This document shows positions 2,190 through 13,256 of a stretch of DNA of 64,000 nt, one piece after another. Source of the stretch: Enterococcus moraviensis ATCC BAA-383 (GTDB taxonomy: Bacteria > Bacillota > Bacilli > Lactobacillales > Enterococcaceae); assembly GCF_000407445.1 (NCBI RefSeq), contig NZ_ASWB01000002.1, forward strand, positions 682,001-746,000, read 5' to 3'. The translations under genes were made by a program, and so were the position numbers. The stretch's first letter is position 1. Each line of letters opens with the position of its first letter. Under the pieces are notes generated by a model. It worked only from the letters and a program-made list of their open reading frames with translations, made no database searches and was not told the DNA's origin.

Positions 2190-5100
2190 ATGAAAAAAAT
2201 TATCGACTATTATAAAACGAGTTTAGAGCAAGCCTCTTTATCAGAAGTAAAACCAACAAAAAATAAGTCACTCCAGATTTCTTTTCAAGACTATCTTACA
2301 GGAGTTGTCAAAGATCTAAATGAAGAGACAATAGATCGCTTATTTGAAGAAAATGAGGAAGAGATTGACGTTTTTCTGTTTCCAATTCAATTGCAATCTG
2401 GATCGGGAAAATCTGAAAAGCGATTATATCCTTTAATTATCCCAGCAAGTCTAACCAAAAATGGTGAGTTGAAACATATAACCTATGGTGTTCCTTGGAT
2501 TCCAAGAATGCTGCTTGCACCAGTGGAGAATTCAAAATTATCTGTCATCGGAGAAAATGATGATTATCTTCAATTTATAGAAAGTCATTCTTTTCGGGAA
2601 CTATCTTGGAACGAATATACTCAATTGACAACTGAGTTATTTGAGTATGTATGTAAACAAAAGATAACTGATTTAACTGAAATCTCTTGGTTTAAGAAAG
2701 TGGATGAAGATATTTTAATATTTAAAGGAGCATCCAATGGCGGAGCTGCTCAACGAATTGTAAAACTATATGACTCGATAACAAAACACAATGGAGAGTT
2801 ACCATTATTAAACAATTTTTTAGGTAATAAGAATAGTTCAACAGATCCCAATTTACTATCAGAAACAAAGCAAATAGAAATGGACAAATTTCATTTAGGC
2901 CAAATGAAACCAACTTTCGGACTTTCTCTTAGCCAACGAGAAGTAGTTCGCCATATGAATACACTGGATAACGGGGAAATCATAGGAGTAACGGGTCCGC
3001 CTGGAACAGGAAAAACCACTTTAGTGCAAAGTATCATCGCTTCAAACTGGATTAAAGCCGCTATTGATCAAAAACAACCGCCAATTTGTGTTGTTTCCTC
3101 AACCAATAATCAAGCTGTAACGAATGTCATTGAAAGCTTTCAAATAGATAACAGCCAAGGAACTAGTTTTGATTTAAATCACTTTCCCGATTTTTCAGAA
3201 TTATATTCACTAAAGAAAAACTTCGATTTATTTGAAGACCGCTGGATTCCAGAGCTAGACAGTTATGGTCTGTATATTGTGAATAAAAAGAAATATTCTG
3301 AGGCATCTTTAGCAGCGATGAAAGCAAAAATTAGCAGTGATAATAGTGAATATTTAGAAAGAATGGAATCAATTGAGTTTTTAGAACAAGCAAAAGTGTA
3401 TTTTTTATCAAATTTTGAACAAACTTTTAATAAAAAAGACTGTACTATTAAACAAGCTAAAAAAGAAATTCATCGTTGGTTAATGATGCTATCTAGAGAC
3501 TTGCATGAGCTTATTGAATTTCACTCAAACGAAAAAAACTATAAAGCAATGATAGCAGAAATGAATAATCTGTTGAATGAGATTAACAATTCGATAGACG
3601 AAAATCAATTAAAAGTCACAATGTTAAAAACAACCTGTTTTGAGTGGGAAACATTTAATTCCAAAGCAAGTAATATTTTAGATATTATTCCACACCTAAA
3701 ACAAAAACGTGAACAAGAAAGAAAACAGAAATTCTGTCAACTCAATGAGCTTTCCTCAATTGAGGAGTTAGAAAGCTTATTAGAAAAAGAAAGACAAATA
3801 ACTCAAGCTTTATCAGCTAAAAAAGAGCAATTAGCAACGAGTTATAAAAATATAAAGAATGAAGAAAAGCGCTACCAACTACTCTTAAAAAGATATCATC
3901 TAGATCAAGCTCTAAGTTATGATTACCTCAATGAACACTTAGATAAAACGATTAGGTATTTATTATTTTTATTTGCAACGCATTATTGGGAAGCAGAGTG
4001 GCTCATTTCCATCGACGAAATGAACGAAAAAGAGCAACTACCTAATTCTGTTAAAACAATAAAAGAATATCAACAAAGATGGATCAGAAGTGCTATGTTG
4101 ACACCATGTATTGTTGGAACACTTTACCAAGTACCAGTATTTTTCTCTTATGAAAATAAGCCGATGTTTAATTTTATTGATTTATTAATTACGGATGAAT
4201 CAGGGCAAGTTAGTCCTGAAATAAGCACAGCTAGCCTGTCGCTTGCAAAAAAATATTTAGCAGTTGGTGATACAAAGCAAATTGAGCCCATTTGGAATAT
4301 GGCAACAGAAGTAGATAAAGGAAATATTCTTAAACTACTTACAACGAATCAAGACGAAATGTCGCTATTCATGAATACTGGACTATCAGCATCTTGCGGT
4401 AATTTGATGAAAGTTGCTCAGATTAGGAGTAAATTCCATAAATATTCTCATTTAAGCGGTGGTTTATTTCTGAGTGAACATCGCAGATGTCTGCCAGAAA
4501 TTATCACTTATTGTAATAATTTAGCCTACGATGGTAAATTAGAAGCAAAACGAAAAGAAGAAGAGAGTTATTATAAAGATAAACTACCACCTATGGGCTA
4601 TGGACATATTATCGGGAAAATGATGCGAAAAGATAATAGTATGGCAAATGTAATGGAAGCTAGAACGATAGTAAATTGGATCAATGATCAAAAAGATAGA
4701 TTATTGAAAATGTATAACAAGAAAACAATTGGAGAAGTTATCGCAGTAGTTACACCTTTTAAAGCGCAAAAAATTGTGATAAACAACGAATTAAAAAAAT
4801 TAGGTTTTAAAGAAAATGAGATTGTTGTCGGTACAGTACATGCATTGCAAGGTGCTGAAAAATCTGTAGTAATTTTTTCAACTGTTTATGATTTTTCTTA
4901 TAAAGGTACTTACTTTTTTGATAAAAGTGTTCACATGTTAAATGTTGCTGTATCTAGAGCTAAAGATAGTTTTTTAGTTTTTGGAGATACAAATATTTTT
5001 AGTTTAGATGGGAAATCACCTTCTGCGCAGCTGGCAAAAATTATTTTTGCGTCAGAACACAATGCCATTCATGGGTTAGAAAAATACAATAGAGTATCAG

Positions 5101-5576
5101 AGGGAAATGTCCAAAGAATAGAAGGTGTTCCAGATCATGATGACTATTTAAAAAAACTGATTAATCGAACAGAGAAATGTATTCATATTGTTTCACCATA
5201 TGTATCTTATTATACTTTAAAAAATTATTGTCCGGAATTATTGAATTTGATACAACAAAAAGTGATAGAAGGAAAAGAGATTTTTATCTATACTTCTCCT
5301 TCAATCAATCAAAGTAGGAAAGCAAGTTATGAAGATGGTAGAAAACTGTTAGAGCAGACAGGTGCCAAGTTGATTGATTTAAATCGTGTTCATAGCAAAA
5401 TGATTATTGTAGACAAGCTTGCTTTAGTAGACGGATCATTCAATTGGTTTTCAGCCAGTAGAGAAAAAGATTATGCATACTATAATTGGGATACTTCTAT
5501 CGTTTTTTATGGTAAAGACGCTAGTGAAATGATTGATAGTCGATTGGAATTATTGGAGGAAAGAGTAATGAAGTGA
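2190..5576 (+). CDS. SF1 helicase with C-terminal PLD nuclease (Mokosh type II MkoC-like)
   Basis: 1128 aa. Walker A GPPGTGKTT is at 269-277, motif II DES at 669-671, motif III GDTKQ at 693-697 and motif VI VAVSRAK at 919-925, all characteristic of COG1112/Upf1-like SF1 helicases. About 350 charged, coiled-coil-prone residues separate motifs I and II. The last 150 residues are a phospholipase-D-like domain with one HxKxxxxD motif (H1068, K1070, D1075) followed by GSFNW. The helicase-PLD fusion is the layout of the single-protein Mokosh type II defence system. It lies alone in an accessory region beside a toxin-antitoxin pair. An anti-phage role is inferred from architecture and context. RNA/DNA repair helicases are the alternative. 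Confidence 0.8.
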   Translation: MKKIIDYYKTSLEQASLSEVKPTKNKSLQISFQDYLTGVVKDLNEETIDRLFEENEEEIDVFLFPIQLQSGSGKSEKRLYPLIIPASLTKNGELKHITYGVPWIPRMLLAPVENSKLSVIGENDDYLQFIESHSFRELSWNEYTQLTTELFEYVCKQKITDLTEISWFKKVDEDILIFKGASNGGAAQRIVKLYDSITKHNGELPLLNNFLGNKNSSTDPNLLSETKQIEMDKFHLGQMKPTFGLSLSQREVVRHMNTLDNGEIIGVTGPPGTGKTTLVQSIIASNWIKAAIDQKQPPICVVSSTNNQAVTNVIESFQIDNSQGTSFDLNHFPDFSELYSLKKNFDLFEDRWIPELDSYGLYIVNKKKYSEASLAAMKAKISSDNSEYLERMESIEFLEQAKVYFLSNFEQTFNKKDCTIKQAKKEIHRWLMMLSRDLHELIEFHSNEKNYKAMIAEMNNLLNEINNSIDENQLKVTMLKTTCFEWETFNSKASNILDIIPHLKQKREQERKQKFCQLNELSSIEELESLLEKERQITQALSAKKEQLATSYKNIKNEEKRYQLLLKRYHLDQALSYDYLNEHLDKTIRYLLFLFATHYWEAEWLISIDEMNEKEQLPNSVKTIKEYQQRWIRSAMLTPCIVGTLYQVPVFFSYENKPMFNFIDLLITDESGQVSPEISTASLSLAKKYLAVGDTKQIEPIWNMATEVDKGNILKLLTTNQDEMSLFMNTGLSASCGNLMKVAQIRSKFHKYSHLSGGLFLSEHRRCLPEIITYCNNLAYDGKLEAKRKEEESYYKDKLPPMGYGHIIGKMMRKDNSMANVMEARTIVNWINDQKDRLLKMYNKKTIGEVIAVVTPFKAQKIVINNELKKLGFKENEIVVGTVHALQGAEKSVVIFSTVYDFSYKGTYFFDKSVHMLNVAVSRAKDSFLVFGDTNIFSLDGKSPSAQLAKIIFASEHNAIHGLEKYNRVSEGNVQRIEGVPDHDDYLKKLINRTEKCIHIVSPYVSYYTLKNYCPELLNLIQQKVIEGKEIFIYTSPSINQSRKASYEDGRKLLEQTGAKLIDLNRVHSKMIIVDKLALVDGSFNWFSASREKDYAYYNWDTSIVFYGKDASEMIDSRLELLEERVMK

Positions 5577-5577
5577 A

Positions 5578-5688
5578 ATTAATATATTATTTAAAGAACA
5601 ATTTCAATATTTATTGGAACTTAGGATAAAATTAAGTGAAGAATTACAAGGACTTGTTGAAGAAGCTGAAGGGTTGGCGGGAATATAA
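5578..5688 (+). pseudogene. Short coding-like remnant after the helicase gene
   Basis: An open stretch of about 36 codons, in a different frame from the helicase, reads an amphipathic segment (…YLLELRIKLSEELQGLVEEA…). It has no ATG, GTG or well-placed ribosome binding site. It may be the tail of a lost small gene or a peptide from a rare start. No family is recognised. Confidence 0.2.
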
Positions 5689-5791
5689 TATTCTTGATCC
5701 TAATATTATATGGTAAAAAGTAGAGTGACTAAAATAATAATAGAGTATAATTACACGGATGCAAGATTTATTATTAAAGAAATTTTAGTCG

Positions 5792-5829
5792 AAAACTAGG
5801 AACTCTTATATATGTGTTCCTAGTTTTTT
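5792..5829 (+). terminator. Rho-independent terminator
   Basis: AAAACTAGGAA (5792-5802) pairs with TTCCTAGTTTT (5817-5827), with more Ts after. It separates the helicase transcript from the toxin-antitoxin operon. Confidence 0.7.
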
Positions 5830-5841
5830 GTTGTTAACATG

Positions 5842-5869
5842 TTGCTAAAATGTTGTTAATTGGTATAAT
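5842..5869 (+). promoter_or_regulatory. Promoter of the toxin-antitoxin operon
   Basis: TTGCTA (-35, 5842-5847), 16-base spacer, TATAAT (-10, 5864-5869). TGTTGTTAA occurs on both sides of the -35 box, a likely operator repeat for RelB-type autoregulation, which is an inference. Confidence 0.5.
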
Positions 5870-5900
5870 ATAGAAAAAGAATCGAAAAGAGGGATAAAGA

Positions 5901-6166
5901 ATGCCGACAGTTAAAAAAAACCAATTCATATTTCAGTTGATGAAGATTTGAAAGAACAAGCAGAACAACTTTTTAATGAATTAGGCTTGAATATGACAAG
6001 TGCTATCAATGTATTTTTAAAACAAGCAGTGACAGAGCAAGCAATTCCTTTTGAAATTCGAAAAGCGAACAAAGATACCTTAGAAGCCTTAAACGATGTG
6101 AAAAGCAATAAGTTACACGGAGGATTTGCTTCTGTTAAGGATTTAATGGAGGATTTGAATGCTTGA
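5901..6166 (+). pseudogene. RelB/DinJ-family antitoxin with 5' frameshift in an A8 run
   Basis: From 5921 the frame reads PIHISVDEDLK…, a standard RelB/DinJ ribbon-helix-helix antitoxin, to 6166. The only ATG with a good context (5901, after GAGGG) reads MPTVKK and then runs off frame at an A8 run (5913-5920), stopping at 5949-5951. One more A, or two fewer, would restore a normal antitoxin. An in-frame TTG at 5948 would give a 72-aa product without the DNA-binding strand. The gene may be broken, rescued by slippage on the A run, or affected by a sequencing error. It overlaps the toxin start by 8 bases. Confidence 0.7.
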
Positions 6167-6431
6167 GATTTTTTATACATCAAGATTTAAAAAAGATTAT
6201 AAGAAAATTGTGAAACAAAGGAAACTGATTTCTGAATTTGAAAAAGTTGTTACATTACTTCAAAATCAAAAATCACTTCCTGAAAGATATAAAGATCATA
6301 AATTGACTGGAAATTATGTAGGGTTTCGAGAATGTCTTATTACGCCAGATTGGTTGTTAATTTATCAAATAGATCACAATCAACTTGTATTAGTTTTGAC
6401 AAGAACTGGATCTCATAGTGATCTATGTTAG
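6159..6431 (+). CDS. YafQ/RelE-family mRNA interferase toxin
   Basis: 90 aa. The compact RelE fold sequence ends in RTGSHSDLC, the YafQ-type C terminus whose histidine takes part in mRNA cleavage on the ribosome. Residues around YKDHKLTG and FRECLI match the family. The ATG at 6159 lies inside the 3' end of the antitoxin gene, so translation is probably coupled. The toxin looks intact although its antitoxin frame is disturbed at the 5' end. A terminator follows immediately. Confidence 0.85.
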   Translation: MLEIFYTSRFKKDYKKIVKQRKLISEFEKVVTLLQNQKSLPERYKDHKLTGNYVGFRECLITPDWLLIYQIDHNQLVLVLTRTGSHSDLC

Positions 6432-6445
6432 ATCGATGTAAAGCT

Positions 6446-6475
6446 AAAAGGATTTCTCATTGAGAAATCCTTTTT
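6446..6475 (+). terminator. Rho-independent terminator of the toxin-antitoxin operon
   Basis: AAAAGGATTTCTCA (6446-6459) and its exact complement (6461-6474) form a 14-bp stem around one base, and the right arm itself ends in Ts. Confidence 0.85.
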
Positions 6476-6576
6476 CAAATATTTTTTCTACATAAAGTAT
6501 AAAAGGTATGTACAAATAAATTTTTTTATTGTAATATATAATAAATGGTATTCATTTAGTTGTGGGAGGTGTTCGA

Positions 6577-8601
6577 TTGGTTGATTATTATCATAATATG
6601 CAAAATGTAGAAAATGATTGTGGATCTGCAGTTGTGAAAACTATTTTACAAAAATACAGGAACAATAATTGTTTTAACTATCTATTTTCAGATATTGAGT
6701 TAACTTCTGACGGCTATTCTATTTTTGATGTGGAGAGTGAACTAAAGAAATTCAATATCGAAGCGGAGTCATACTTCATAGAAAAAATAAACGAATTAAA
6801 AACGATTAAAAATGAATGTATTTTAGTAGTAGAGAACGAAGGCTTGAATCACTATATTGTTTGCCATGAAATCAAGAAAAATTCTGCAATCATTTCAGAT
6901 CCCAAATTACCTGATATTTGTGAACTATCATTAGAAGAATTGGAAAAGATATTCCTTGGTTATGTGATTTGTATTGAAAATGTAGGCGTTTTCGAATCTG
7001 AAAAAAATGAGAAGCAACAAAGCCTCTATCGGATTCTCCTTCAGAATATTCCTAAAAAAATGAGGGTAGAAGTTTGTTTTATCACAGGAATTCAATTAGT
7101 TATACCGTTAATATATTATTTCATTATCCAACAATTATTTAATAATAATTTCCACATGGATGGGTTTATGAATCTAATCTATTTACTCTTTTTTGTTTCA
7201 TTCTCAGTAACCTCCTATATGTTGATACAAAGGAACAATGAACTGCGTATAAAAATGGATAATATGACGCAACAGATCATGATTAATAGATATTTTGATG
7301 CTAATTTTGGGTTTGATCTACAAAATAACTATAACAATGCTATAGGTTATTTATGGAATCTTTTAGAAAGTACCAACGGTGTTTTGTCTAGGTTGTTTTT
7401 ATTCGTAGATAGTGCGTATGTTATTGTCTTGTTTACTGTATTAACTTTTGTTTCACTCCCCTTGTCCATTTTATTTTTGATTTTATTTGGTTCAACATTT
7501 GTGATTATGAACACAAAGATACGTCAATTAAGCAACAATGAAAAATATTACATTTCAAAATTTAATGCATTGACAAAAACGATTGAAGAATACATTCAAT
7601 CATCTAATGATATTATTCTATTTAATAATGAGACGCGTGCAAAAAAGAAATTAAATGATTTATTTGATGAATATGCAACAGCAAAATTAAACACTGGAAT
7701 GTTTGAAAGTAAGTTAGCAGGGATCTCAAAAACTATGGGTAGTTTGATGATTCTAGTTTTGTTAACGATTACGTATTTTATGATCATTGAGGAAAAAAAT
7801 ATTTATATGATCGCAGCCGGTTTTTATGTCTTTTTCATTATCGTTTCTAGTTTTGAAGAAATCATCAATAGCTGGTTGTATTACAAGCGTTCTGTAATAG
7901 GCACTGATTATATCAAAGAAATGACCAATTTAGTCATCGATGCTTCTATCACGTCTGCGAAGTCAGAAAAAGCGCAATTGCCTAAAATTCAAAAATTAGA
8001 ATACAAACATATCTATTTTGCCTACGAAAAAAATAGAGAGATTTTCAAAGATTTTTCTTTTACGTTGAATAAAGGTGAAATTACAGGTATTTTTGGTGAA
8101 AATGGTTCGGGAAAATCTACCTTAGCAGAAATTATTGCTGGTGTTAGAGATTTTGACCAAGGATCTTTGCTCATAAATGAGCAAATTAATCTGACGAGTG
8201 TTGAGCAGATTAATGTAAGCGAACAAGCAAGCGTTTATTCGCCTAATCAACATCTATACACAGGTAGCCTAGGGAATAATATTACTTTTAATACTGTATT
8301 CCACAATGAAAAAATTGAGGCAAAACGGTTCTTTGATAGTGCTCTGAGCGATAATCAGCTAGTTTTGTTTAATGGACAGAACCTTTCAATTGGCGAACGG
8401 CAAAAGCTCCTCTTAGAACGCTGTTTAAATAAGCAAGCGAATATTTACATTTTTGATGAACCAACTGGAAATTTAGATAGAGAGTCTAGGCGAATATTGT
8501 ACGATACATTGATTTCTTTAAAAGAAGAAAATAAAATCATTGTGCTCATTTCACATGATCCTAAACTTTTTGATATTTGTGATAAACAAATTAACTTATA
8601 G
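6577..8601 (+). CDS. Bacteriocin ABC exporter with C39 leader peptidase
   Basis: 674 aa from a TTG at 6577, chosen because GGGAGG (6564-6569) lies 7 bases before it; the upstream GTG at 6562 overlaps that site. N-terminal C39 cysteine peptidase with C15 (NDCGSA), H92 and D108, then a membrane domain of about six segments (residues 160-440), then an ATPase with GENGSGKST, a variant signature LSIGERQ and Walker B YIFDEP. Such proteins cut the leader of a double-glycine-type peptide and export it. The peptide is encoded at 9135, in the same cluster. First gene of the cluster; the next gene follows after 10 bases. Confidence 0.9.
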   Translation: MVDYYHNMQNVENDCGSAVVKTILQKYRNNNCFNYLFSDIELTSDGYSIFDVESELKKFNIEAESYFIEKINELKTIKNECILVVENEGLNHYIVCHEIKKNSAIISDPKLPDICELSLEELEKIFLGYVICIENVGVFESEKNEKQQSLYRILLQNIPKKMRVEVCFITGIQLVIPLIYYFIIQQLFNNNFHMDGFMNLIYLLFFVSFSVTSYMLIQRNNELRIKMDNMTQQIMINRYFDANFGFDLQNNYNNAIGYLWNLLESTNGVLSRLFLFVDSAYVIVLFTVLTFVSLPLSILFLILFGSTFVIMNTKIRQLSNNEKYYISKFNALTKTIEEYIQSSNDIILFNNETRAKKKLNDLFDEYATAKLNTGMFESKLAGISKTMGSLMILVLLTITYFMIIEEKNIYMIAAGFYVFFIIVSSFEEIINSWLYYKRSVIGTDYIKEMTNLVIDASITSAKSEKAQLPKIQKLEYKHIYFAYEKNREIFKDFSFTLNKGEITGIFGENGSGKSTLAEIIAGVRDFDQGSLLINEQINLTSVEQINVSEQASVYSPNQHLYTGSLGNNITFNTVFHNEKIEAKRFFDSALSDNQLVLFNGQNLSIGERQKLLLERCLNKQANIYIFDEPTGNLDRESRRILYDTLISLKEENKIIVLISHDPKLFDICDKQINL

Positions 8602-8611
8602 GAGAGACGCT

Positions 8612-9058
8612 ATGAAAAAAAAGACCGCTTTTTTATATCTTTCTGTTGTTATTATGTTTGTAGCAATGACTATTTGTCTGACAGACTTACTGCTTCCTCA
8701 TGAGCATGAAGCTAATTCTTCAGAAGTAGGGATGGCTTACTTTGATGAGCTGAGTTTTGAAAGTATTCAAAAGAAAAATGAAAATAAAGAAGTTTATTTT
8801 GCTTACTTTGGTTTTGATGATTGTTCTGGTTGCAAAGAATTTACACCTTTGTTAATTGCTGCAAGTAAAGATATTGACTATCCCAGAATATTCCATACTG
8901 ATACATCAATCAAAAGTAATAAAAAAGTAATTACTGAATTTGGAATAGAAGTGGTACCAACATTACTTTTATTTGAAGATGGGAAAATTAGTAAAAGATT
9001 CGTATTTTCTGGAGAATCTGAAAAAAAAATCAAAGATTTCCTGCTCAAAAATCAATAA
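8612..9058 (+). CDS. Membrane-anchored thioredoxin-like protein (bacteriocin disulfide formation)
   Basis: 148 aa. ATG at 8612 after GGAGAG; longer in-frame starts lie within the exporter gene. N-terminal membrane anchor (about residues 6-28), then a thioredoxin fold with the active-site motif CSGC (C71, C74) and the cis-proline region VVPTLLLFEDG. It would act outside the membrane as a thiol oxidase or isomerase. Neighbouring the four-cysteine precursor, it most likely sets that peptide's disulfide bonds, as thioredoxin-like partners do in pediocin and sublancin clusters. A relative is encoded at 12704. Confidence 0.8.
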   Translation: MKKKTAFLYLSVVIMFVAMTICLTDLLLPHEHEANSSEVGMAYFDELSFESIQKKNENKEVYFAYFGFDDCSGCKEFTPLLIAASKDIDYPRIFHTDTSIKSNKKVITEFGIEVVPTLLLFEDGKISKRFVFSGESEKKIKDFLLKNQ

Positions 9059-9134
9059 AAACTGTTATTCCACATGTTTAACATGTTTGAATAAAAAGAC
9101 TTTTTATGCAATAAAAAAATAGGAGGAATGTACA

Positions 9135-9284
9135 ATGAAAAAATTATCAATTGAAGAAAAGAAAGAAGTAGTAGCTGGTTTACGTTGTGGAACTTGCGGA
9201 TTAAACTGGAGTGGTTGTAACCAAAAAGGTGCTAAAATCATTCATAAATCTAAAAAAAATCATATATGTCAAGTAGCACCATAG
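9135..9284 (+). CDS. Four-cysteine bacteriocin-like precursor peptide, 49 aa
   Basis: AGGAGG lies 8 bases before the ATG. The leader (MKKLSIEEKKEVVAG, residues 1-15) matches the LSxEE…V-x-G pattern of C39-processed peptides, but ends in AG rather than GG, GA or GS. The expected 34-aa product has cysteines 18, 21, 28 and 45, a CxxC pair near its start, a basic middle and no tandem aromatic YGNGV box, so it is not pediocin-like. No glycosyltransferase or lanthipeptide synthetase is nearby. I know no named family for it. It is surrounded by export, thioredoxin and immunity-type genes. Confidence 0.75.
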   Translation: MKKLSIEEKKEVVAGLRCGTCGLNWSGCNQKGAKIIHKSKKNHICQVAP

Positions 9285-9382
9285 TCTAGGAATAAAGGTA
9301 TACTTATTTAAAATGCATAAAAAGTCCACAATTAAGAGTAATGAGATTTTAAACTTATTCAAATGTTATTATTCTTTAATTG

Positions 9383-9423
9383 AGCATAAATGTAAGATTA
9401 TTTAAGATTCTTACATTTGTGCT
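9383..9423 (+). terminator. Stem-loop between the precursor and immunity genes
   Basis: AGCATAAATGTAAGA (9383-9397) pairs along 15 bp, one G-U, with TCTTACATTTGTGCT (9409-9423). Only a weak T-rich tail follows, so it may be a partial terminator or RNA stabiliser making the peptide mRNA more abundant than downstream genes. Confidence 0.6.
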
Positions 9424-9446
9424 TATAATTCTTAAAGGAGCCAACA

Positions 9447-10682
9447 ATGAATATATCCCAAGTTAAAGTTTTGAATTTTTGGAGAGATAAGAAAAACATA
9501 GCTATTATCTGTATTTACATCGTAATGATTTTTTCTTTTTTCGTATATAACGATAAAAAAATCGAGCAAGAACACGAATTAGTAACACAAGAAATGGAGG
9601 AAAAACTATATATCGGTAACATCCATGCAGAAAAAACGATTATTGAAGAACAGTTTTCTGGTGATTCCGTAAATACGCTGGCTGCTTTTAGATTACGAAA
9701 TGATTATTTACAAAATTGGAGAGACCGTAAGATAGGAGACTTTCAGCTTATCGAGAAAAAAACGGCTTCAAATTATCTCACATATTTAGCTGCCTTACCA
9801 GTTGAAATAAAAGATACTTTAGATGAAGATGAATTCCCGCCAACTATCTATGCTGATAATAAGGTAAAACAAATCGAGCAATTAAATAAACAAAATCTTT
9901 TACTTGAATCTTCACGCTATGGGAATGATGGGAGTAGTTTTTTAACCTCAATTCTCTATTTTTTAACCTCTTTTTTAGGCATTTTTCTATTTCTATTTTT
10001 ATTTGGTGATTTCCTTTCATCTGATTATGAAAGACAAACTATCCGCTTGATGTTTACTACAATTACGGATAAACGCTCTTATCTTTTGCATAGTTTAAAC
10101 GTGACAATGATCCATGTCATAGTATTTTTTTGTGGAAGCATATTCTTTTCATTTGGATTGGCAACAATTGTTGGAGGAGTAGGACAGCTAAATTATCCAT
10201 TGATCTCACCAATGCATTCTAGTTTTTTTCTACCTGCTTCGAGCTACTGGCTGCAAGTTTCTTTTTTATTTATCTGTGTCTTATTGTTTGTTTTTTTATG
10301 TTATGGAGTTTTCACTTTGTTTATGAAACGTTCGTTGCTTTCCTTAATTTGTACTTGTTCCTTTTTATTTGCTATGAATAAACTCAGTCTTTTACCATAT
10401 TTTCGGCAATTAGCACCGTTTAATCCTTTTGTTTATTTAGAAGCCTCGAACATTTTTGTTGGGAAAGATTTTACGCCAGCATATTTTAGCACAGAAGCAT
10501 ATGTTAATGTAGAATACGAAATGGTTGTTGAAAATCTAAACTATTATTTAGGAAATAATGTAGCTACTGTACTTGAAAATCCGACAATAAATTTCACTAC
10601 AGGACTGATTGTACTGTTGATATCAAGTTTTCTCTTATTTATAGGTTTAAATCTATTACTCAAACGAAAAAGTATCATTTAA
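9447..10682 (+). CDS. ABC-2-type permease subunit (probable bacteriocin immunity)
   Basis: 411 aa, AAAGGAG before the ATG. One membrane segment near the N terminus (about 20-38), about 130 residues outside, then five or six membrane segments from residue 170 to the end: the usual ABC-2 permease layout. It starts a permease-ATPase-permease trio (9447-12683) directly after the bacteriocin peptide. Such trios commonly pump bacteriocins away from the producer. Immunity is inferred; a role in export is less likely because a dedicated exporter is present. Confidence 0.75.
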   Translation: MNISQVKVLNFWRDKKNIAIICIYIVMIFSFFVYNDKKIEQEHELVTQEMEEKLYIGNIHAEKTIIEEQFSGDSVNTLAAFRLRNDYLQNWRDRKIGDFQLIEKKTASNYLTYLAALPVEIKDTLDEDEFPPTIYADNKVKQIEQLNKQNLLLESSRYGNDGSSFLTSILYFLTSFLGIFLFLFLFGDFLSSDYERQTIRLMFTTITDKRSYLLHSLNVTMIHVIVFFCGSIFFSFGLATIVGGVGQLNYPLISPMHSSFFLPASSYWLQVSFLFICVLLFVFLCYGVFTLFMKRSLLSLICTCSFLFAMNKLSLLPYFRQLAPFNPFVYLEASNIFVGKDFTPAYFSTEAYVNVEYEMVVENLNYYLGNNVATVLENPTINFTTGLIVLLISSFLLFIGLNLLLKRKSII

Positions 10683-10705
10683 TAGTTTTATAGGAGGGAG
10701 AGCAT

Positions 10706-11572
10706 ATGATTCTTCAATTAATACAAGTGTCAAAATCATTTGGTGACCATCAAGTTTTAGATGATATTGATTTTGAATTAAAAGAACCGCAAATTATTGG
10801 CCTTGTTGCACCGAATGGATATGGAAAAACAACATTATTTAATATAATTTCAAATTTAGAAAAACCTGATCACGGTGAGATAATGATTTTTTCAGAAAAA
10901 AATACGAATGAAAAAATTTTTGAGCATCTAGCATATTTACAAGACAATCGTGTACTGTATGATAATTTAACAGCTAGAGAACATTTAGCGTTTGTCGCAG
11001 CTTGTCATAATGTTGAACAACAAGAAATAATAGAAATCTGTGATCGTCTAGGAATGAGTCACTATCTTGATAAACGAGTTAAAAAGTATTCTCTAGGTAT
11101 GAAGCAACATTTGTTATTGGCAATCGCATTAATCAGTCAACCTCAGTTACTATTGTTGGATGAGCCTTTAAATGGATTGGATCCAAGTAGTGTCAAGCTT
11201 TTTAGAGAAATTATGACGGAATTGTTTAATAAGGGAGTAAGCATAATTATTTCCTCGCATAATTTATATGAAATTGAAAAATTGACTAGTAATATTCTTT
11301 TTTTACATGACCAAAAATTAATTAGAAATACCGAAATAGATGTTCCTGTTGATTATTTTTATTTCCTAAGCGATATACGAAAAATAGAGACTGAATTAAC
11401 TAAAAACGGCTTTTTTTGGCAATCAAAAAATTCTGTGGAATTTCTTTTTACATTAAATGAATGTCAAAAAGAGAAACTTGAGGAAATTTGCCAGTCTAAC
11501 GATGTGCTTATTTATGATTGTATCCAGAAAATAAGTAAAACCGAAGCAGCTTATTTTAGTTTATTTACTTAA
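10706..11572 (+). CDS. ABC transporter ATPase (probable bacteriocin immunity)
   Basis: 288 aa after AGGAGGG. Walker A is APNGYGKTT (usually GPNGAGKTT), signature YSLGMKQ, Walker B LLLLDEP with D-loop NGLD, and H-loop SSHN. All catalytic residues are present. The last 75 residues are a variable C-terminal domain, as in BcrA/LanF-like ATPases. It pairs with the two flanking permeases. Confidence 0.85.
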   Translation: MILQLIQVSKSFGDHQVLDDIDFELKEPQIIGLVAPNGYGKTTLFNIISNLEKPDHGEIMIFSEKNTNEKIFEHLAYLQDNRVLYDNLTAREHLAFVAACHNVEQQEIIEICDRLGMSHYLDKRVKKYSLGMKQHLLLAIALISQPQLLLLDEPLNGLDPSSVKLFREIMTELFNKGVSIIISSHNLYEIEKLTSNILFLHDQKLIRNTEIDVPVDYFYFLSDIRKIETELTKNGFFWQSKNSVEFLFTLNECQKEKLEEICQSNDVLIYDCIQKISKTEAAYFSLFT

Positions 11573-11588
11573 TTAATGGAGATTGACG

Positions 11589-12683
11589 ATGAATAAAAAA
11601 CTATTTATTTTTGAGCTTAAAAAATTTTTAAAAGAAAAGAAGAATCTTTTTATTTTTTCCTTGATCGTGTTTTTTTTAGGAGCAACTTTTTTCCAAACCA
11701 TCATTCGGCAAAATGAATTAAGGAAAAAAGATATTCGACAGACCGTTTCATTTTACAATGTTGCGACACAGAATATTTTGACTTTATCGGATGGTCAAGG
11801 ACTTGGTAAGGAGGAAACAAAACAGCTTAATTTATTAAGTGACATTGCAGACAACTTAAACATAGTAGTTACGTTAAAAAAAAATAATCAGTATATAAAA
11901 AGTTATCCCTATCAAATCATTTTATTCAAACAGATGCTGTCTCTGGAAAAAGAACATGGTATTGCGTTATGGGAAAACAAGGCGATCATTACACAATTGA
12001 AACGACTCAAAATATTACAATCACAGAACATAGATGAGTCCTTTGATGAGAAAGGGACTACTGGCTTTTTATTTCTACTAACGTTCTTGAAAAATAGCTT
12101 TAGTTTTTTAGGAATGGGTGTAATTATCTTGCTGTTTATGGATTTATGGAGTGGTGAAAAAAATAGTGGAATAAGTTTATTGTATACCTTACCTATCAAA
12201 AGAAAGGCGATTGAATACTCAAAATTGTATCTAGCAATCAGTATAAGTTGCGTCATACTACTTACTTCGAGTATCATTGCTTTTTTAGTGGGTACAATCT
12301 ATTCTGGAATGGGAAGTGCTGATTTTCCTATCGTTGTTGTTTCCAATAATCAGTATCTAGTTATTCCTTTAAAAGTGTATTTGACTAAAGGAATTTTCTT
12401 GGGTATTTTAGGAATAATTGTATTTATATGCTGTATAAAATTGGCAGATACACTTTTTTCACAGCCGTCAATTATTTTAAGTGTGCTATTGCTTTTATTA
12501 GGTATTTCATTTGGCATCGCTCAAATAATCCCAGATAATTATTTCCCATTAAATCTTATTGAGAGTTGGCATTACTTTTCATTTCATGGCAAATTTACCA
12601 AATTTATCGTAGCCATCATTATACAACTGACTACTATTGTTTGTTTACTAAAACTATCAGATACATTAAAAAAAAGAACCTAA
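11589..12683 (+). CDS. ABC-2-type permease subunit, second of the pair
   Basis: 364 aa; the ATG at 11589 sits 6 bases after GGAGA, preferred to a TTG at 11583. Layout matches the other permease: N-terminal membrane segment (about 18-36), about 120 external residues, then five or six segments including one ending at the conserved WSGEKNSG loop. Similar shape with low sequence identity to the 9447 product suggests the two form a heterodimer around the ATPase. Confidence 0.75.
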   Translation: MNKKLFIFELKKFLKEKKNLFIFSLIVFFLGATFFQTIIRQNELRKKDIRQTVSFYNVATQNILTLSDGQGLGKEETKQLNLLSDIADNLNIVVTLKKNNQYIKSYPYQIILFKQMLSLEKEHGIALWENKAIITQLKRLKILQSQNIDESFDEKGTTGFLFLLTFLKNSFSFLGMGVIILLFMDLWSGEKNSGISLLYTLPIKRKAIEYSKLYLAISISCVILLTSSIIAFLVGTIYSGMGSADFPIVVVSNNQYLVIPLKVYLTKGIFLGILGIIVFICCIKLADTLFSQPSIILSVLLLLLGISFGIAQIIPDNYFPLNLIESWHYFSFHGKFTKFIVAIIIQLTTIVCLLKLSDTLKKRT

Positions 12684-12703
12684 TATTATGAAGGAGATAA
12701 AGA

Positions 12704-13207
12704 ATGAAAAAGTGGTTGTATCTAAGTGTAATATGTATCACATCGATGTCAGTATTTATTTTAGGTAATATATATAATACGAACAATCAAAAAACAATGG
12801 ATAAAAAAATCGCTAAACTAAAAAAAGAAAAAAAGACAGCGTACCCTGAGATTTATGATTATTTAGACAGCATTACTGTGGATAATTTTCAGAGTTACTC
12901 AAATGAAAATGAGTTGGTTGTTTATATTGGTCGCCCGACCTGCAGTGACTGCAATTTGTTTGAACCTAGACTAATTGATTTAATAGTGGAGGAAAAGTTA
13001 GAAGCAAAAGTGAAGTATTTAAATGTTGCAAAGTTGAGAAAAGATGAAAAGGAATGGGATAATTTCAAACAGTTGTATAATGTCAATTATACACCAACAA
13101 TCGCTAAGTTTGTTGAGGGGGAATTGGTTTCTAAAATTGAGTGGACACCTGAAAAAGGGATTTCAATAGACAAAGTAGAAACATGGATCAATCAGAATGT
13201 ATCTTAA
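12704..13207 (+). CDS. Second membrane-anchored thioredoxin-like protein
   Basis: 167 aa after AAGGAGAT. N-terminal signal anchor (about residues 4-22), a charged linker, then a thioredoxin fold with CSDC (C80, C83) and a YTPTIAKF cis-proline loop. Last gene of the bacteriocin cluster. Two thioredoxin-like proteins in one cluster suggest an oxidase plus isomerase pair, as with two-disulfide peptides. The two proteins are related only distantly. Confidence 0.75.
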   Translation: MKKWLYLSVICITSMSVFILGNIYNTNNQKTMDKKIAKLKKEKKTAYPEIYDYLDSITVDNFQSYSNENELVVYIGRPTCSDCNLFEPRLIDLIVEEKLEAKVKYLNVAKLRKDEKEWDNFKQLYNVNYTPTIAKFVEGELVSKIEWTPEKGISIDKVETWINQNVS

Positions 13208-13223
13208 TGAAGATGAAAAATAT

Positions 13224-13256
13224 AAATCAGAGTCAATTGTGATTCTGATTTTTTTT
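13224..13256 (+). terminator. Terminator of the bacteriocin cluster
   Basis: AAATCAGA (13224-13231) pairs with TCTGATTT (13244-13251), followed by a run of Ts. In the 360 bases to the next gene I see only one more weak stem-loop (about 13400-13425) and no gene. Confidence 0.75.

Follow-up and report, generated by a model that had tools for sequence, protein, structure and literature searches.

Gene content and organization of the cluster

We analyzed a 64,000-nucleotide stretch of the 3.59 Mb genome of Enterococcus moraviensis ATCC BAA-383 (contig NZ_ASWB01000002.1, positions 682,001 to 746,000; hereafter, the window), which contains a cluster of seven genes at positions 6577-13207 that likely directs the production of a small, disulfide-bonded bacteriocin. 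The genes, all with intact reading frames on the plus strand, encode, in this order, a C39 peptidase-ABC exporter (PCAT; 6577-8601), with a TTG start preceded by GGAGGT; a thioredoxin-like protein with a predicted N-terminal membrane anchor and a CSGC motif (Trx1; 8612-9058); a precursor peptide of 49 amino acids (aa) (9135-9284); a predicted ABC-2-type permease with a long loop after the first transmembrane segment (PermA; 9447-10682); an ABC ATPase (10706-11572); another ABC-2-type permease (PermB; 11589-12683); and a DUF6568 thioredoxin-fold protein with a predicted N-terminal membrane anchor and a CSDC motif (Trx2; 12704-13207). An initial annotation of this DNA, made from the letters alone, had described the same set of genes as a compact and complete C39 bacteriocin-type cluster, and this description stands: all components are present and collinear, the cluster is apparently complete, and all products except PermA and the precursor have Pfam support.

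The precursor gene is preceded by an AGGAGG ribosome-binding site (9121-9126, plus strand), 8 nt 5' of the ATG. The gap between the precursor and PermA genes (9285-9446) folds with an energy of -37 kcal/mol (z -4.42; none of 200 shuffled sequences was equally stable) and contains a 15-bp stem-loop on the plus strand (9383-9423), which is not among the sites listed by the terminator scan. This hairpin is a possible attenuator or mRNA-stabilizing element, and may cause the genes that follow it to be expressed less than the precursor. A terminator-like stem with a T run (13224-13251, plus strand) lies 3' of the last gene; the scan found four such sites in the region, against 2.1 +/- 1.7 expected from shuffling.

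The precursor peptide

The precursor consists of the leader MKKLSIEEKKEVVAG (9135-9179) and a predicted core, LRCGTCGLNWSGCNQKGAKIIHKSKKNHICQVAP, that together with the stop codon occupies 9180-9284. The core contains four cysteines among its 34 residues, with a spacing of 2-6-16, has a net charge of +6 and a pI of 9.7, and is devoid of acidic residues. The leader is short, of the family type, and ends in a pair of small residues, AG (..EVVAG), as in C39-processed peptides of the double-glycine type. The AG ending, which the initial annotation had set apart from GG, GA or GS, is thus confirmed but is not peculiar, being common among the leaders of related clusters.

A position matrix derived from the leaders of 27 relatives, with the window left out, was applied to 1836 candidate start codons (20-120 aa) and ranked the precursor first, with 31.7 bits against 4.1 for the runner-up. 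When the leader of E. rivorum was also removed, the resulting 26-leader matrix gave 30.2 bits and a runner-up of 4.4, and the maximum over 30 Markov-1 random windows was 8.6 bits. Because the pattern used to select these leaders was written after inspection, the matrix is not blind to the leader shape; the window itself never entered it. On sequence grounds, the precursor is real, and the kinship of its leader is far beyond chance.

No Pfam, NCBIfam or PHROGs family matches the precursor above the cut-off, and no Pfam family does up to an E-value of 0.1; two NCBIfam matches near 0.01, to Fe-S proteins, are far under the cut-off and were rejected. Searches with the single peptide sequence retrieved no homologue from the plasmid, phage or genome contig collections, matched only the source genome among the 22 genomes of the genus, and yielded only chance matches in the PDB (best E-value 0.074). 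The core contains no YGNGV box, and Pfam scanning of 18 open reading frames (ORFs) of the window (105-21651) detected no lanthionine synthetase, in agreement with the earlier placement of the peptide outside the pediocin and lanthipeptide classes. Nor was a description of these peptides found in the literature search, which was limited to open-licence PubMed Central papers.

The exporter, the thioredoxins and the ABC transporter

The exporter combines the Peptidase_C39 (1.7e-21) and ABC_tran (7.5e-23) domains. In an alignment with 20 other exporters, its catalytic Gln, Cys, His and Asp residues and the Walker motifs are intact; Gln, Cys and His are conserved in all 21 sequences, and the Asp of the window protein is replaced by Asn in 10 of the 21.

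Trx1 contains a Pfam Thioredoxin domain (3.1e-8; 34 bits, cut-off 23.5) and one N-terminal transmembrane-like segment. Trx2 matches DUF6568 (PF20207; 1.5e-8; 35.1 bits, cut-off 27.1) as well as Thioredoxin_2 (8.1e-7; 29.8, cut-off 27), and its hydropathy profile likewise reveals a transmembrane-like segment at the N-terminus. The AlphaFold model of Trx2 (mean per-residue confidence, pLDDT, 81) adopts the thioredoxin fold on comparison with the PDB, and the Trx2 profile matches, among others, the solved bacteriocin transport accessory protein 1zma (2.3e-6). Both proteins match PedC_BrcD weakly (27 bits, cut-off 120). They are predicted to be membrane-anchored and presumably face outward. DUF6568 was detected in 39 of the 395 genomes examined from the order, and 14 control genomes gave no match. 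As a marker of such clusters it was discarded: seven Paenibacillus loci carry DUF6568 with no other cluster homologue within about 10 kb, and of nine DUF6568 regions from outside the genus (L116-L124), seven lack an adjacent C39 exporter homologue, the exceptions being L117 and L124.

The ATPase (ABC_tran, 1.6e-27) has as its best NCBIfam model the lantibiotic protection ATPase TIGR03740 (1.5e-51; 175 bits, below the cut-off), and PermB matches ABC2_membrane_2 (3.2e-7; 30.3, cut-off 27.2). PermA has no Pfam match above the cut-off, and its AlphaFold structure was discarded (pLDDT 38). The hydropathy profiles of PermA and PermB are alike, with one N-terminal segment, a long loop and then several segments, and homologues of PermA adjoin the corresponding genes in E. 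rivorum (24% identity) and in a genome from another family of the order, G195 (29%).

The closest relatives

The clusters of E. rivorum (L033/L043) and G195 (L117) are built from the same seven types of gene as that of the window. The precursor gene lies upstream of PermA in each of them, on the opposite strand in G195, and the cores are longer than that of the window peptide and contain three cysteines each. The window, E. rivorum and G195 group together with support of 100/99 in the exporter tree and 98/98 in the ATPase tree. The similarity of the cores of the window and G195 was equalled by 1 of 5000 shuffles, and that of the cores of E. rivorum and G195 by none of 5000. All three long precursors end in H-[IL]-C-x-[VS]-A-P, and six of the last seven residues are identical between the window and G195, a match not reached in 200000 random draws, in a test devised after the match had been seen. 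The last cysteine (C30) occupies an invariant column of the three-way precursor alignment, the only cysteine to do so. A C-terminal loop closed by this cysteine is likely a feature shared by the three long precursors; the N-terminal CxxC is particular to the window.

A profile of the three long precursors matches 8 of the 395 genomes of the order at an E-value of 0.01, strongly only for the three members themselves. The other five matches range from 5e-4 to 9e-3; two contain internal stops, and the one in G002 lies inside a catalogued two-cysteine array. At the class level, the profile matched 1 of 398 genomes, the source genome only. The GNIYYV stretch of the relatives was considered as possibly pediocin-like in origin, an idea that was dropped because no Pfam match supports it.

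A wider family of two-cysteine peptides in Enterococcus

The cluster is not an isolated case: the exporter has relatives at an E-value of 4.8e-78 or better in 16 of the 22 genomes of the genus, its own included. At an E-value of 1e-30 or lower, 20 of the 105 genomes available for the family contain a total of 23 matches. We analyzed 18 loci, each 18-19 kb in length (7.7 kb for one), among the 22 matches outside the source genome; the remaining four (L020, L021, L023 and L024) are weaker, with 23-24% identity. Two thioredoxin-like genes are present in 16 of the 18 loci, one locus has Trx2 alone and one has neither, and all 18 encode a further ABC ATPase. In one of the 16, from E. crotali (L026, 10452-10963), the Trx2 gene is divided between two ORFs, and the peptide array is still open.

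The leader pattern, written after seeing examples, finds precursors in 17 of the 18 loci, and the remaining locus (L038) has a candidate; the pattern misses this candidate as well as the long-leader two-cysteine peptides of L032, where it retrieved a cysteine-free precursor only, the two-cysteine ones being recognized separately. Two-cysteine cores, such as KFCVVDAWGLKLFCWY and WVCVLWGAVCWG, are encoded by 15 of the 18 loci, often in tandem. Altogether, there are 31 distinct cores, those of the window and G195 included: 25 contain exactly two cysteines and are 12-22 aa long, with the CX10C arrangement in 19 of them, and the other six comprise one with no cysteine, two with one, two with three and the four-cysteine core of the window. 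Given these counts and the three cysteines of the two nearest relatives, the maturation through two disulfides emphasized in the initial annotation is not the trait that defines these clusters.

Several loci contain sizeable precursor arrays. L025 (11106-12687, ten genes), L026, L027 and L031 carry 8-10 genes with graded cores; in L028 (10535-11242), L029 and L034, with seven, five and seven genes, respectively, the 12-aa core WVCVLWGA[VI]CWG is identical within each locus. Associated regulators vary, with AgrB and a GHKL kinase in L025 and a ComR-like protein in L029. Farther downstream of the 8-10-gene arrays lies a small gene that is AgrD-like on visual inspection; in L025 the gene preceding it is AgrB by Pfam, so that its position also fits AgrD, with no Pfam or NCBIfam match for the small gene itself. 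Directly 5' of the exporter, L025 (7419-7982) and L029 (7437-7982) encode a protein of about 185 aa with no Pfam match above the cut-off; homologues of the L025 protein adjoin the ABC genes in three loci from another family of the order (L162-L164), and it is a candidate for an additional immunity factor.

Spread beyond the order and mobile copies

In the phage collection, a single record, Gardnerella phage vB_Gva_AB1 (MW387018), contains an exporter match at an E-value of 1e-30 or lower. The region (L165, 3551-8624) encodes the exporter, an ATPase annotated as involved in lantibiotic transport, two thioredoxin-family proteins and an unannotated precursor, MKKLTLEESRSIRAG-WMCVVWGFICWG, in which 8 of the 12 core positions are identical to the core WVCVLWGAVCWG of L028/L029. 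The paper that describes the phage classes the exporter and both thioredoxin genes as replication functions and the ATPase as a lysogeny function, and its main text does not contain the word "peptide" (PMC7996455). The motif WxCVxWGxxCWG is rare, given that a sample of 229 genomes from the phylum yielded no match; it occurs in two contigs of the viral collection (L166 and L167), with the same precursor in both. L167 includes the exporter, the ATPase and both thioredoxins; in the 1.8 kb L166, the exporter looks cut short because only its first 58 residues precede the ATPase.

A plasmid of Weissella hellenica carries a C39 exporter, a thioredoxin and a two-cysteine precursor. The profile of two-cysteine precursors also matches three genomes from another family of the order. 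L162 contains a precursor at 7585 on the minus strand, the ABC genes and the exporter, and L163 a precursor at 7210 on the plus strand, the ABC genes and a partial exporter; the core in both is QICLYYWYGIGFLCWD. In L164, neither a precursor, by the pattern used, nor an exporter was found. No thioredoxin homologue was detected within the 15 kb searched in any of the three, so that the thioredoxins are frequent but not obligatory components.

Genomic neighborhood

Upstream of the cluster, on the plus strand, the window encodes an 1128-aa helicase with a PLD-like domain (2190-5576), a full-length match (1047 bits) to the PADLOC model MkoC of the Mokosh defence system. A pair consisting of a RelB-family antitoxin and a YafQ-family toxin (5948-6431, plus strand) separates the defence gene from the exporter. 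The downstream phosphoesterase gene is kept in 15 of the 22 genomes of the genus, the source genome included. In 8 of the 14 other phosphoesterase regions (18 kb each), no homologue of the exporter, PermA, the ATPase, PermB, Trx2, the helicase or YafQ was detected at an E-value of 1e-10, the queries leaving out Trx1, the precursor and RelB; two of those regions show single ABC domains. In G019, the distance from the counterpart of the upstream gene (1050-1388; 94% identical) to the phosphoesterase is about 3.9 kb, compared with 12.2 kb in the window, and this difference, seen in one genome, suggests that 2190-13207 is variable cargo flanked by conserved genes.

Proposed function

We consider it likely, with some reserve, that the product of the operon is a single cationic bacteriocin, secreted, processed by the C39 domain and closed by disulfide bonds; an exported peptide that is small, positively charged and rich in cysteine is probably a weapon against rival bacteria. 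Under this model, the C39 domain of the exporter would recognize the leader (..EVVAG) and cut it, freeing the 34-residue core, which would leave the cell via the same protein; cutting and export are proposed because the motifs are intact and on the strength of what is known of the family. Trx1 (CSGC) and Trx2 (CSDC), anchored and taken as outward-facing, would oxidize or shuffle the cysteines of the emerging core outside the membrane. Our guess is that C13 and C30 form a bridge shared with the relatives and that the window-specific CxxC (C3 and C6) provides a second, optional bridge. The PermA-ATPase-PermB transporter could confer self-protection by expelling the peptide from the membrane of the producer. 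Speaking for this model are the leader kinship, the intact motifs of the exporter, the recurrence of exporter, thioredoxins and an ABC transporter in the related loci, the tree groupings and similar precursors of the window, E. rivorum and G195, the charge and pI of the core, and the lantibiotic protection model matched best by the ATPase.

On a broader reading, for which the case appears evenly balanced, the window holds an outlier, with its four cysteines, of a mobile class that crosses phyla and consists of disulfide-containing mini-bacteriocins with no glycosylation. This class would be characterized by a C39 exporter, usually an outward-facing thioredoxin pair, an ABC self-protection transporter and hypervariable cores of 12-48 aa, mostly CX10C, and would include the tandem arrays in Enterococcus and the Gardnerella phage copy.

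Several observations weigh against the bacteriocin model of the operon. Long-branch warnings, which include the window, were issued for both trees, and the joins in the ATPase tree may be false. The similarity between the cores of the window and E. rivorum alone is not significant, being equalled by 788 of 5000 shuffles and, in further comparisons, by 332 of 2000 (local) and 620 of 2000 (end-to-end). In the three-way alignment, C13 is one column off the cysteine of a relative, the two being in register only pairwise. The nearest relatives have three cysteines, and therefore one thiol would be free, modified or used in a dimer. The TIGR03740 score of the ATPase lies under the lantibiotic-protection cut-off of 310 bits, and PermA is assigned as a permease on topology and position. 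Finally, related exporter and ABC genes accompany a two-cysteine precursor, with no thioredoxin homologue, in L162 and L042.

Alternative interpretations

The peptide could be a non-killing signal for communication between cells, which the ABC transporter would import or clear. C39 exporters export signals, too (PMC7018657, PMC7595303), and the regulators encoded in L025 and L029 fit such a role. However, none of the 18 scanned window ORFs encodes a sensor kinase, an Rgg protein or a response regulator; the regulators found among these ORFs, a BglG-type antiterminator and a MerR gene, lie beyond genes for a phosphotransferase system and a glycosidase, and L025 has, beside AgrB, a separate small gene that itself resembles an Agr signal by position and on visual inspection. 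A signaling role seems unlikely.

That the cluster is decayed or silent would be in line with the detection of the precursor in a single one of the 22 genomes of the genus. We regard this as improbable because the seven frames are open, the catalytic residues of the exporter are intact, and ribosome-binding sites precede both the exporter and the precursor.

A metal- or redox-active thiol peptide that the thioredoxins keep reduced could account for the CxxC in the core, the odd number of cysteines in the relatives and the histidine separated by one residue from the last cysteine. This, too, is a distinctly improbable explanation: the operon contains no metal transport or metal-sensing gene, and both thioredoxins, going by hydropathy, are predicted to be anchored in the membrane and presumably to lie outside, where oxidation is usual.

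Glycocins carry two nested disulfides in paired CX6C helices. The window cluster shares the C39 exporter and the thiol-disulfide proteins of the glycocin layout, and the core contains a single CX6C rather than a pair. The Trx2 family also extends to a glycosyltransferase-bearing cluster: on an E. faecalis plasmid, a DUF6568 gene adjoins another thioredoxin gene and genes for a C39 protein and a family-2 glycosyltransferase. In G151, DUF6568 is accompanied by a thioredoxin, a C39 exporter and an ORF resembling a glycosyltransferase on visual inspection. Given these layouts, the thioredoxin pair is something that the window has in common with glycocin-type clusters, and it is the glycosyltransferase that differs. 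The locus L124 (1861-8607) is glycocin-like, with a cysteine-rich precursor, an ORF resembling a glycosyltransferase by eye, a C39 exporter, a second ABC protein, a thioredoxin and DUF6568. The initial annotation held two disulfides set by two dedicated enzymes to be an unusual maturation, which is overstated: glycocin clusters ordinarily combine two thiol proteins (BdbA/B, GccC/D, ThgC/D) with a C39 exporter (PMC8620827, PMC12457901). In line with the initial annotation, no glycosyltransferase was found among the 18 scanned window ORFs. The glycosyltransferase of the E. faecalis plasmid cluster, the one query type used, matches three places in the source genome over about 90-100 residues only (best 1.4e-6), compared with full-length matches in two other members of the genus (3.2e-82 and 1.6e-40), and has no homologue at an E-value of 1e-3 among the ORFs of the relative loci L025-L061. 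With a core that lacks the paired CX6C and only partial matches of this query, a glycocin modified by a glycosyltransferase encoded elsewhere in the genome is very improbable.

Implications

If the bacteriocin interpretation is correct, the cassette would separate the thioredoxin pair from glycosylation, and the part played by this pair in disulfide formation could be studied by itself. Should the peptides prove to kill, they would, to our knowledge, rank among the smallest ribosomally synthesized bacteriocins closed by a disulfide, cheap to synthesize, and the 25 distinct two-cysteine cores would constitute a natural series for studying how sequence sets the target range. The Gardnerella phage copy, with its Enterococcus-like core, leads one to ask whether phages carry competition genes in the vaginal flora.

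Comparison with known systems

Among the characterized bacteriocins, the glycocins (sublancin, glycocin F, enterocin F4-9 and thermoglycocin) likewise combine a C39 exporter and one or two thioredoxin-like proteins with a cysteine-rich core (PMC8620827, PMC12457901). Unlike in glycocin clusters, in the window no glycosyltransferase was found among the scanned ORFs, the paired CX6C is absent, the leader ends in AG, and a permease-ATPase-permease transporter is part of the operon. Class IIa (pediocin-like) bacteriocins are defined by the YGNGV box, and their clusters with PedC/PedD contain a C39 exporter and a disulfide accessory protein, as does the window; unlike these, the window cluster encodes a core with no YGNGV box, two accessory proteins and an ABC transporter of three genes in place of a small immunity protein. 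The Gardnerella phage cassette and, in part, the two-cysteine Enterococcus loci (L025-L041) share with the window the C39 exporter, the ABC ATPase, the thioredoxin pair and the AG or GG leader, and differ in their cores of 12-22 aa with two cysteines, often in tandem copies. The clusters of E. rivorum and G195 come closest, with the same gene types, the common grouping of the exporters and ATPases, and a related precursor, and are distinguished from the window by the position of the precursor gene upstream of PermA (with the opposite orientation in G195) and by a longer, three-cysteine core.

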